Assembly: GCF_002179165.1 (NCBI RefSeq)
Contig: NZ_NFNY01000067.1
Coordinates: 1-63,468, forward strand
DNA from: Campylobacter jejuni
Lineage (GTDB): Bacteria; Campylobacterota; Campylobacteria; Campylobacterales; Campylobacteraceae
DNA: 63,468 nucleotides
Direction of reading: 5' to 3'
The notes below the pieces were generated by a model. It had not been told where the DNA came from. It was given only the letters and a program-made list of their open reading frames with translations, and ran no database searches. A program made the translations under genes and the position numbers. Positions 142 to 2,818 of the stretch are shown here, piece after piece; the first letter of the stretch is position 1, and the number at the start of each line of letters is the position of its first letter.

Positions 142-457
142 TTTATAAGCTTGTATTTGGAGATTGTAAGAAAAATTTCTTATAAAATAGGCTTTTGAAA
201 GAAAAAAAACTAAAGCCGTTTTTAAGTATTAAAAATCTTTCAATATTCTTAAATTTATTTAAAAACTACTCCTTTAATTATGATATATATTATCAAATAA
301 AAATAACAAAAAAATATATTTTTGCTTTTATTTACATTACTTTCTTAAAGTGTTACAATTCTTGCAAGTTTTTTGAATGAAACTTATTAAAAGTAGATTT
401 TAAAAGCTTAGGAATTTCGCAAACTTTAGGTGAATAACTCTTTAAAGGATTTTTCAA
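142..457. other. Non-coding AT-rich stretch upstream of first cassette
   Basis: No convincing gene. A 61-codon TTG-initiated frame at 195-380 has no good Shine-Dalgarno and a composition expected of random A/T. A sigma70-like extended -10 (TGTTACAAT, 351-359) lies about 100 nt upstream of the first 27-codon ORF and could drive it. Confidence 0.4.
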
Positions 458-541
458 ATGTTTAGAAAGATTTTAAAAGGGTTGTTTAAAAAACTTACTT
501 TAAAAATTATTATAAAAATAAAATTTAAAGTAAGAAAATAA
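458..541 (+). CDS. 27-aa basic hydrophobic peptide (copy 1), AapA-like in character
   Basis: ATG is preceded by AAAGGA at 444-449 with 8 nt spacing. The predicted peptide starts MFRKILKGLFKK and ends IKFKVRK: 11 Lys/Arg, no acidic residue, alternating with Ile/Leu/Phe, so a cationic amphipathic or membrane-active peptide is likely. Two more ORFs of exactly the same length (84 nt) with the same composition lie at 1083 and 1592. The stop codon runs straight into a 12-bp hairpin. The 24 nt before the ATG resemble those before copy 2 (CTCTTT, A-run, GG). Size, charge and layout recall type I toxins of the AapA/IsoA family; homology is not shown. A TATAAT-like sequence on the opposite strand within the ORF (about 508-516) could start an antisense RNA. 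Confidence 0.6.
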   Translation: MFRKILKGLFKKLTLKIIIKIKFKVRK

Positions 542-542
542 A

Positions 543-575
543 TAACCTACCCGCAATTATAGCGGGTTTAGGTTA
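543..575 (+). terminator. Hairpin directly after peptide 1
   Basis: TAACCTA+CCCGC pairs with GCGGG+TAGGTTA: 12 bp, one 2-nt bulge and a 7-nt loop (AATTATA). It begins 2 nt after the peptide stop and ends 25 nt before the next start codon. It lacks a U tract on the plus strand, so it may be an mRNA 3'-end or stability structure rather than a classical terminator. Confidence 0.55.
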
Positions 576-599
576 AAAAATAAATAAAAAGGATGAAAA

Positions 600-950
600 A
601 TGGTAAATGTAAAAATCAGTGAAAATTTGTTGCTAGATATGTTTGAAGAGCGTTTGGAATATTGGGAGAGCGGAAGAGATTACAAAGACTTATTTTTAAA
701 AATGTATGAAAATTATATTAGTGATGGTCTTTTTGAAAATATGGAGCTTGATATTATGCAAGTTGTGGATAATGATGTTATTAATTATTGTCAAGTTTTG
801 AATGTTAATGATTTTGATGATGAAGATGAGTTTAAAAGAGCAATTAGGCTTTATAATGAAGGTTATAGGGATGTTAGTTGTGATGGGTTTGATTTTGCTT
901 TTATAGAAGCTATCGACGAGAATAAAGGGCTTTTATTAGTAAGATACTAA
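600..950 (+). CDS. Small acidic hypothetical protein (116 aa)
   Basis: I do not recognise a family. The start ATG has AAAAGGA about 6-9 nt upstream. The protein has 28 Asp/Glu against 11 Lys/Arg, with an acidic cluster FDDEDEF near residue 77 and no predicted membrane segment or Cys/His metal motif. Such a charge distribution is seen in DNA-mimic and anti-restriction proteins of mobile elements, but also in many unrelated small proteins, so function is open. It lies between the first peptide-hairpin unit and the second cassette, in the inferred end of an element integrated at tRNA-Arg. Codon use and length make it the most gene-like ORF in the first 2.7 kb. Confidence 0.75.
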   Translation: MVNVKISENLLLDMFEERLEYWESGRDYKDLFLKMYENYISDGLFENMELDIMQVVDNDVINYCQVLNVNDFDDEDEFKRAIRLYNEGYRDVSCDGFDFAFIEAIDENKGLLLVRY

Positions 951-1082
951 TAAAAAGCCAAATTAAAAATGAAATTAATTATATATTAAAGTTTATTAAA
1001 AAAAGATTAAAGGCTTGATTATTAAATTTAAAAATTTTTGGGTGGGCGGCAAGGGGTTAAAACTCTTTTAAAAGGTTTGAAA

Positions 1083-1166
1083 ATGATGTTTTTCAAATTT
1101 AAAAAAGGGTTTAAGATATTTGGAGTGAAATTTAAAATTAATTTAAAAATCACTTCAAAAAAATAA
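1083..1166 (+). CDS. 27-aa basic hydrophobic peptide (copy 2)
   Basis: Same length as copies 1 and 3. It starts MMFFKFKKGFKIFGVKFK and ends ITSKK: 10 Lys, no acidic residue, many Phe/Ile. AAAAGG at 1070-1075 gives a 7-nt spacing to ATG. Upstream, ACTCTTTTAAAAGG is a near-copy of the sequence before copy 1 and is self-complementary around the Shine-Dalgarno, which could hide it in the mRNA. A G-rich element (GGGTGGGCGG, about 1040-1049) lies 35-45 nt before the start. The hairpin overlaps the stop codon. Confidence 0.6.
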   Translation: MMFFKFKKGFKIFGVKFKINLKITSKK

Positions 1167-1199
1167 ACTCTTGGCGGTTATTTTACCGCCTTTGAGTTT
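1165..1199 (+). terminator. Hairpin directly after peptide 2
   Basis: AAACTC and GGCGGT pair with ACCGCC and GAGTTT around a short internal loop: two 6-bp helices with a 6-nt apical loop. It overlaps the last two bases of the peptide stop codon. The 3' arm CCGCC could alternatively pair with GGCGG in the 5' G-rich element (1045-1049). No U tract follows. Confidence 0.55.
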
Positions 1200-1266
1200 A
1201 AAACAAAATTAAGAAAGAAAGGTTAAAAAATGAAAATTAAAAATAAAAACTTAAAAAAAAATAAAT

Positions 1267-1461
1267 ATGGATTTTAAAAATATTAGTGATGAAAATCAAA
1301 AATTTAAGGATTTGAATAAAACTTATTTAAAAGAATTAAAGGTTTTTAATAACTTAAATTATATTTTTAAAAAGATTAGAGACGGCATCTCTAGTCAAAA
1401 TTATAAACTTTTTTATGATTTAAAAACCAAAGGAGATGATGTTTTAATGATTATTGTTTAA
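1267..1461 (+). CDS. Small hypothetical protein (64 aa; possibly 76 aa from 1230)
   Basis: Unrecognised small hydrophilic protein, Lys/Asp/Asn-rich, without membrane segments. The best Shine-Dalgarno (AAGAAAGAAAGG, 1211-1222) sits before an ATG at 1230, not before 1267. From 1230 the frame reads MKIKNKNLKKNKYGF and stops at 1277 because of a nine-A tract at 1253-1261. With eight A residues the frame would run through 1267 to give 76 aa. Either the true start is 1267, or the gene carries a one-base slip in a homopolymer, or the tract was misread in sequencing. It is the downstream gene of cassette 2. Confidence 0.5.
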   Translation: MDFKNISDENQKFKDLNKTYLKELKVFNNLNYIFKKIRDGISSQNYKLFYDLKTKGDDVLMIIV

Positions 1462-1591
1462 GAATAGCTTGTAAAGTTTATTTTATAGGTTTTGCAAACG
1501 ATAGGGAATTAAAAATTTTAATTAGAAAAGAATTAAAAAATTAACTTTTTTTGGTTGGGGTGGGCGGGATTTTTAAGCTAGGATTTTAAAA

Positions 1592-1675
1592 ATGAAAGTT
1601 TTTAGAATTGTGGTTTTTTTAAAATGGTTTGGTTTAAAAATTAATTTAATCTTTAAAACCAAAACCAAAAAATAA
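1592..1675 (+). CDS. 27-aa basic hydrophobic peptide (copy 3)
   Basis: Third 84-nt ORF: starts MKVFRIVVFLKWFGLK and ends IFKTKTKK, with 8 Lys/Arg, no acidic residue and a hydrophobic first half. AGGA at 1580-1583 is 8 nt from the ATG. A G-rich element (GGTTGGGGTGGGCGGG) lies about 25-40 nt upstream. A hairpin follows 8 nt after the stop. The pattern LKI-hydrophobic-Lys near the C-terminus is shared with copy 1 and is reminiscent of AapA peptides; alignment would be needed to claim it. Confidence 0.6.
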   Translation: MKVFRIVVFLKWFGLKINLIFKTKTKK

Positions 1676-1683
1676 AAAAAACA

Positions 1684-1706
1684 TAGGGGCATTATAGCCC
1701 CCTTAG
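1684..1706 (+). terminator. Hairpin directly after peptide 3
   Basis: GGGGC (1686-1690) pairs with GCCCC (1697-1701) around an ATTATA loop, with weak outer pairing. The loop matches AATTATA of hairpin 1. After it comes CTTAAAACAAAATTAA, nearly the same as TTTAAAACAAAATTAAG after hairpin 2, so the cassettes are homologous beyond the ORFs. Confidence 0.5.
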
Positions 1707-2741: not shown

Positions 2742-2818
2742 TGGTGTCCCCGACAAGATTTGAACTTGTGGCCTCAAAATTAGGAATTTTGCGCTCTATC
2801 CTGCTGAGCTACGAGGAC
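2742..2818 (-). tRNA. tRNA-Arg (anticodon CCT)
   Basis: 77 nt with GTCCTCG acceptor arm matching CGGGGAC, TTCAAAT T-loop, encoded CCA and anticodon loop TTCCTAA giving CCT (reads AGG). It lies just downstream of fusA. Its 3' end faces the accessory stretch 1-2741. Arg tRNA genes are known integration sites for Campylobacter genomic elements, which fits the integrase remnant next to it. Confidence 0.95.

Follow-up and report, generated by a model that had tools for sequence, protein, structure and literature searches.

Are the three short open reading frames (ORFs) near the left end of this Campylobacter jejuni contig genuine genes, and if so, are they members of the AapA/IsoA family of type I toxin-antitoxin systems? 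The first-pass annotation of the window, by which we mean the whole stretch of 63,468 nucleotides analysed here, had described them as tandem 27-codon ORFs for basic hydrophobic peptides, each followed by a hairpin, and had read them as type I toxin-like peptides, or another small-peptide family, on a mobile element. The ORFs and the one clear sense promoter candidate lie as follows:

351–359, plus strand: candidate sense promoter of cassette 1, extended −10 TGTTACAAT, one base off the C. jejuni TGxTATAAT, with a predicted start at about 366
458–541, plus strand: cassette 1 ORF, 27 codons and a stop, peptide MFRKILKGLFKKLTLKIIIKIKFKVRK
1083–1166, plus strand: cassette 2 ORF, 27 codons and a stop, peptide MMFFKFKKGFKIFGVKFKINLKITSKK
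1592–1675, plus strand: cassette 3 ORF, 27 codons and a stop, peptide MKVFRIVVFLKWFGLKINLIFKTKTKK

All three ORFs are present as claimed, with 84 nt each, and their products are indeed basic and free of acidic residues (11, 9 and 8 Lys/Arg in copies 1, 2 and 3; no Asp or Glu). The net charge of these 27-residue peptides is +8 to +11, that of known AapA members +7 to +12. A Shine-Dalgarno (SD) sequence precedes every ATG at the described distance of 7–8 nt; it is of the described AAGG type in copies 1 (AAAGGA, 444–449) and 2 (AAAAGG, 1070–1075), whereas copy 3 has TAGGA (1579–1583), that is, AGGA. With this well-placed SD, the basic hydrophobic peptides fall into the class of about 26–32 residues. 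The leaders of copies 1 and 2 are alike, as had been stated (shuffle p 0.0008), and a GC-rich hairpin stands behind all three stop codons, yet the third begins 10 nt after the stop and thus outside the 0–8 nt originally given. Overlooked in that first reading were the hairpins at the start codons and within the coding sequences, the antisense −10 boxes in the 3′ loops and the genes between the cassettes.

Comparison of copies 2 and 3 gives 18 and 19 identities at the first and second codon positions versus 12 at the third. The C-terminus of the window peptides alternates basic and hydrophobic residues, as in Campylobacter AapA, and none of the three ORFs contains a run of codons for a single amino acid. 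A clear sense promoter candidate was seen for copy 1 alone; those of copies 2 and 3 are weak or absent. The leaders of copies 2 and 3 (1037–1049 and 1555–1567) share a G-rich TTGGGTGGGCGG motif, absent from the known AapA leaders examined, for which G-quadruplex formation or pairing to the C-rich 3′ arm is conceivable. As a lead to relatives, the GGGTGGGCGG leader motif of the same two copies was discarded: it revealed no related cassette elsewhere, and L030, the only locus read through completely, falls within a transporter gene.

At about 77% A+T across the cassette region, Lys-rich ORFs free of acidic residues are to be expected, and pairwise scores of the peptides stay near shuffle level, both of which would suit short Lys/Phe/Ile ORFs and hairpins arising from AT-rich composition by chance. 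A blind scan of both strands, set to detect basic ORFs of 18–40 codons that are preceded by a Shine-Dalgarno and followed, no more than 25 nt past the stop, by a GC-rich hairpin, returned exactly three ORFs from the 63 kb window, namely the cassettes, all of them in 1–2740. The remaining 60.7 kb (2741–63468) yielded none, nor did any of 500 dinucleotide shuffles of 1–2740 give a complete cassette. Applied to loci fetched from other Campylobacter-type genomes, the scan returned recognisable AapA genes only, as did a looser version on four further loci. Folding of the whole cassettes gave z-scores of −6.7, −7.5 and −4.8 for copies 1, 2 and 3, while elsewhere in 1–2740 nearly all values lie between about +2.5 and −3, with one exception (1251–1400, z −4.3). 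The joint arrangement of ORF, SD, charge and hairpin is confirmed as far above chance. A pure-chance origin, which we regard as barely credible, is already contradicted by the folding z-scores, the shuffle scan and the compensatory changes in the ORF hairpin described below, and the leader match to an independent AapA locus, also described below, argues against it too.

None of the 48 other genomes of the genus yielded an orthologue of any cassette; the profile built from the three peptides recovered these peptides alone in 49 genomes and nothing in viral contigs. Peptide 3 had no match in plasmids and peptide 1 none in the PDB; Pfam, PHROGs and NCBIfam gave no significant match for the three peptides or the neighbouring ORFs, and a raw DNA search within the genus returned AT-rich noise only. 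A search of the genus for the hairpin/loop pattern was unspecific, and the blind scan, applied to stretches fetched from it, gave no further cassette.

Minimum free energy (MFE) folds place three hairpins in each cassette, one over the start codon and SD, one within the coding sequence and one GC-rich hairpin within about 10 nt of the stop:

438–481, plus strand: cassette 1 start-codon/SD hairpin, containing the SD (MFE fold; z alone only −1.2)
494–534, plus strand: cassette 1 coding-sequence hairpin (z −5.6), register as in cassette 2
544–574, plus strand: cassette 1 3′ hairpin, stem CCCGC/GCGGG, loop AATTATA (fold and blind scan)
1060–1075, plus strand: cassette 2 leader AAACTC...AAAGG, complementary to the 3′ tail CCTTTGAGTTT at 1189–1199 (duplex p 0.036)
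1063–1109, plus strand: cassette 2 start-codon/SD hairpin (z −3.6)
1119–1159, plus strand: cassette 2 coding-sequence hairpin (z −5.6)
1165–1199, plus strand: cassette 2 3′ hairpin, stem GGCGGT/ACCGCC, loop TATTTT, then the anti-SD tail CCTTTGAGTTT (fold and blind scan)
1571–1582, plus strand: cassette 3 leader TTTTAAGCTAGG, complementary to the 3′ tail CCTTAGCTTAAAA at 1701–1713 and sequestering the SD (in the MFE structure; duplex p 0.034)
1575–1616, plus strand: cassette 3 start-codon/SD hairpin (z −4.2)
1625–1667, plus strand: cassette 3 coding-sequence hairpin, weaker (z −2.3), register slightly shifted
1686–1701, plus strand: cassette 3 3′ hairpin, GGGGC ATTATA GCCCC (blind scan)

In cassette 2, the core of the 3′ hairpin spans 1173–1190 and the stop codon is part of the outer stem. 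When the coding-sequence hairpins of copies 1 and 2 are set in a common register, 16 and 17 of 20 positions pair, and eight pairs differ on both sides between the two copies in a compensatory manner, as compared to 0–3 in registers shifted by 1 or 2. The duplex between leader and tail, predicted for copies 2 and 3 as for six known cassettes, does not stand out in copy 1 (p 0.69). A GC-rich leader hairpin, the putative antitoxin terminator, is lacking in the leaders of copies 1–3 but present in the loci L148, L151 and L234.

For comparison, relatives of the published AapA1 query were collected from 399 genomes of the order, 40 loci were extracted and a peptide profile was derived from them. This profile finds true AapA cassettes in the window's own genus, many of them on small plasmid-like contigs, and a tblastn search of AapA against plasmids gave 79 records, 78 from Campylobacter, with the match region unannotated in nearly all of those listed. 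Common to the known cassettes are the SD, hairpins at the start codon, within the ORF and, GC-rich, behind the stop, and a 3′ tail whose pairing with the leader covers the SD. Within their ORFs, ATTATA is invariant (16/16 known AapA cassettes) and coincides with Leu-Tyr codons; we read it as the antitoxin −10 box, and according to published work the −10 box of IsoA3 lies within the AapA3 ORF. AapA/IsoA-type cassettes occur on small cryptic or mobilizable Campylobacter plasmids, e.g. NZ_CP140377.1 and NC_008052.1, and at the loci L148, L153, L217, L218 and L223, with two on the single 5.1-kb contig of L148. Helicobacter genomes also hold tandem arrays of three to five AapA cassettes about 300–650 bp apart (G417:C1:892350-894102; G316:C1:1357813-1358527).

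At the level of the peptides, the window copies do not join this family. Alignment to AapA families, which the first-pass annotation had proposed as a check, turned out negative: in the window's own genome the AapA profile (A3) has no match at the three ORFs, and pairwise similarity to individual AapA peptides is near shuffle level (p 0.05–0.87). The conserved core (M..H.K ... LYxKxxF) is absent from the window peptides, including its M..H(S)K start. As an exception, copy 1 and AapA1 share 9/27 gap-free identities (p 0.002, for one of six pairs tested). The AapA RNA model R1 was not significant at the three ORFs either; it contains only five base pairs, since the 3′ hairpins misalign, and so tests sequence more than structure. 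Copies 2 and 3 lack the in-ORF antisense −10 at Leu-Tyr codons, and copy 1 has it in a displaced position.

On a Helicobacter-labelled contig, L234, which has a parA-like ORF, some 900 bp separate an AapA cassette from a relative of the 116-aa gene found between cassettes 1 and 2 (L234:3954-5363). The leader of this AapA cassette, AGGGGAATAACTCTATATAAAGGACTT, is nearly identical to the copy 1 leader AGGTGAATAACTCTTTAAAGGATTT, at a score reached by 0/5000 shuffles, and also resembles the leader of copy 2 (p 0.006). At the 3′ end, the L234 tail CCTTTTGAATAGAGTTAAA is similar to that of copy 2, CCTTTGAGTTTAAAA, and it is a better pairing partner for the leaders of copies 1 and 2 than the tails of these copies themselves. 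This likeness of leader and tail is the strongest evidence for a probable descent of the window cassettes from AapA rather than convergence on it; peptide similarity alone does not show such descent. Altogether, the earlier interpretation is partly supported, being right in kind, too strong as a claim of membership, and incomplete: RNA architecture, antisense −10 boxes and leader homology speak for an AapA-like type I toxin, whereas the profile search, the pairwise peptide scores and the absence or displacement of the invariant in-ORF −10 speak against strict AapA membership.

If the in-ORF box is missing or displaced, from where might an antitoxin RNA start? Candidates lie on the opposite strand, in the loops of the 3′ hairpins:

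556–561, minus strand: cassette 1 candidate antisense −10 TATAAT in the 3′ loop; antisense RNA predicted from about 549 leftwards across the whole ORF
1180–1185, minus strand: cassette 2 candidate antisense −10 TAAAAT in the 3′ loop
1691–1696, minus strand: cassette 3 candidate antisense −10 TATAAT in the 3′ loop

The 3′ stems are wholly different among the copies, but the loops are kept (ATTATA, ATTTTA, ATTATA). On the opposite strand they read GCTATAAT, GGTAAAAT and GCTATAAT in copies 1–3, containing the −10 boxes TATAAT or TAAAAT; in C. jejuni, sigma70 promoters consist of an extended −10 (TGxTATAAT) with no −35 box (PMC3656092). A −10 hexamer occurs in the loop of 3/3 cassette hairpins versus 0/17 other GC hairpins of the window. 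From start codon to 3′ hairpin, the loop box is the sole antisense hexamer with at least a 5/6 match in copies 2 and 3; copy 1 has a second antisense TATAAT inside the ORF (509–514, codons 18–19). An RNA starting about 7 nt past the loop −10 would be antisense to the entire ORF and the SD. Conservation of the 3′ loop between paralogues is not independent evidence, and an antisense promoter in the loop instead of the ORF is both the main departure from AapA/IsoA and the least certain step. We only tentatively suggest, as a possibility with the odds somewhat against it, that the cassettes form an AapA-type branch in which the antitoxin promoter has moved from the coding sequence into the 3′ hairpin loop of the toxin mRNA itself. 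If so, a single palindrome would serve as mRNA 3′ structure and as antisense promoter, and the peptide would no longer be bound by the requirement (Leu-Tyr = TATAAT) to which every known AapA toxin owes its fixed core; the window copies would then be a natural test of escaping this constraint through a promoter move.

The setting of the cassettes bears on where they came from. The AT-rich stretch that holds them reaches from the left contig end, where base 1 of the contig is base 1 of the window, to a tRNA gene, with two further genes among them:

600–950, plus strand: 116-aa acidic ORF between cassettes 1 and 2 (relatives by sequence search)
1230–1540, plus strand: pseudogene with frameshifts, related to a conjugative-plasmid protein and lying between copies 2 and 3 (tblastn, blastn)
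2745–2818, minus strand: tRNA gene (Rfam search)

We take the tRNA to be tRNA-Arg from its position adjoining fusA; further along the window the gene order is fusA-rpsG-rpsL-fucose genes-rpoC-rpoB, and the Rfam search matched tRNAs but no other family. C. jejuni has this gene order too, which suggests a Campylobacter host, as does the match of AapA relatives from the genus to plasmids of C. jejuni and C. coli. By tblastn the pseudogene matches WP_002815847.1 of pRM1875_35kb, a conjugative plasmid of C. coli, at 55% over 29 aa (E 5e-8), and by blastn at 72% over 133 nt. Its apparent frameshifts lie near 1445 and near a run of nine A (about 1252–1260), where slippage, phase variation or an error in sequencing are all conceivable. 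Relatives of the 116-aa protein were found only in one other genome of the genus (G010), with two copies in an integrated element, on L234 with 43% identity, and on a 7.4-kb phage-like viral contig (L235) carrying ORFs that, read by eye, look like terminase, amidase and integrase. Past the third cassette, ORF 1816–1938 encodes a very hydrophobic protein of 40 aa, with an SD and followed by a U-tailed hairpin (AGGGCTTTTAGCCCTTTTTT), without relatives in the plasmid collection. Near the contig end, at 42–141, two direct repeats of 40 nt, 78% identical and 60 nt apart, contain AAAAATTGnTGGGAnGnCTnTACTAACGCT and are possibly element-end or protein-binding repeats. That the cassettes lie on a mobile element is plausible, given the adjacent tRNA-Arg, the frameshifted conjugative-plasmid gene and the relatives of the 116-aa gene on plasmid- and phage-like contigs; the search of the own genome found no tRNA attachment repeat, and the window begins at a contig end. 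Because a frameshifted plasmid-gene relative lies between copies 2 and 3, the region looks like the worn end of a plasmid-type element integrated at tRNA-Arg, the remainder of which would lie past the contig end.

We consider it probable that the three ORFs belong to paralogous type I toxin-antitoxin cassettes that resemble AapA/IsoA but have diverged from it. The toxin mRNA would be made poorly translatable by the local hairpin that holds SD and start codon, and in copies 2 and 3 the 3′-terminal anti-SD may additionally pair back onto the leader. An antisense RNA is predicted to start just downstream of the −10 in the 3′ hairpin loop and to run back across stop, ORF, start codon and SD, and the full-length duplex with the sense transcript would silence and destabilise the mRNA. 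If the antisense RNA were lost, or the mRNA trimmed at its 3′ end, translation would yield the basic amphipathic peptide of 27 residues, which could act at the inner membrane as a toxin.

The main rival is partial decay, by which plasmid-borne AapA/IsoA modules have lost their in-ORF antitoxin promoter and terminator and now are either silent or the source of inactive peptides that their hairpins keep from being made, with −10 boxes that occur in the 3′ loops only incidentally. The surroundings are indeed a graveyard of genes, the plasmid gene between copies 2 and 3 being frameshifted twice, and the missing profile matches, the poor or undetected sense promoters of copies 2 and 3 and the lack of a 5′-3′ interaction in copy 1 also fit this reading. 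Yet all three ORFs have stayed open at equal length with their SD and start-codon hairpins, and the ORF hairpin of copies 1 and 2 has been kept through compensatory changes, which is not expected of decay; we therefore hold this explanation to be unlikely. Less likely still, to the point of being improbable, is that the cassettes are primarily structured regulatory RNAs, i.e. antisense RNAs or attenuators of downstream genes, or leader peptides, in which the short ORF is secondary. Such a role would fit the very strong folds on both strands and the presence of an ORF downstream of each cassette (600–950, the pseudogene and 1816–1938), but these downstream genes are unrelated and one of them is dead. 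Moreover, the ORFs lack the single-amino-acid codon run, codon positions 1 and 2 are better conserved than position 3 in copies 2–3, and it is specifically the SD and start codon that are enclosed, in an architecture that matches AapA and not attenuators.

If the three cassettes are indeed AapA/IsoA-like, RNA architecture has here found three toxin-like genes that peptide profiles miss, and similar relatives have thus probably been overlooked across the mobile DNA of Campylobacterota. Type I toxins escape annotation through their shortness and variability, and for the unannotated AapA on 78 Campylobacter plasmid records plasmid maintenance is a conceivable role.

How, then, do the window cassettes compare with known systems? 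Fst/Ldr, Hok and TisB are likewise short membrane-active peptides under antisense RNA control (general knowledge; PMC8309996), a likeness of a general kind only. With AapA1 and AapA3 of H. pylori (PMC6733600) the window cassettes have in common a basic peptide of the 30-aa class, an SD hidden by local hairpins, the ORF hairpin, the GC hairpin just after the stop and the multicopy tandem layout, as well as, in copies 2 and 3, the anti-SD 3′ tail. They differ by having 27 instead of 30 residues, neither the LYxKxSF core nor a profile match, and an antisense −10 that is placed in the 3′ hairpin loop, whereas that of H. pylori lies at the in-ORF Leu-Tyr codons. Campylobacter plasmid AapA (e.g. L148, L153) share with the window the genus-level host range, the cassette layout, the net charge and the alternating C-terminus, but retain M..HSK...LYLNF, a TATAAT within the ORF and a GC-rich hairpin in the leader, unlike the window copies. 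In the AapA cassette of L234 (uncultured Helicobacter sp., contig CASFZH010000020.1), the peptide MRKHSKKRPFRLYLKFNLLRLKFKIIFKK differs from the window copies by the classical core and the in-ORF antisense −10, yet its leader reads AGGNGAATAACTCT..TAAAGGA as in copy 1 and its CCTTT..GAGTT tail is like that of copy 2.
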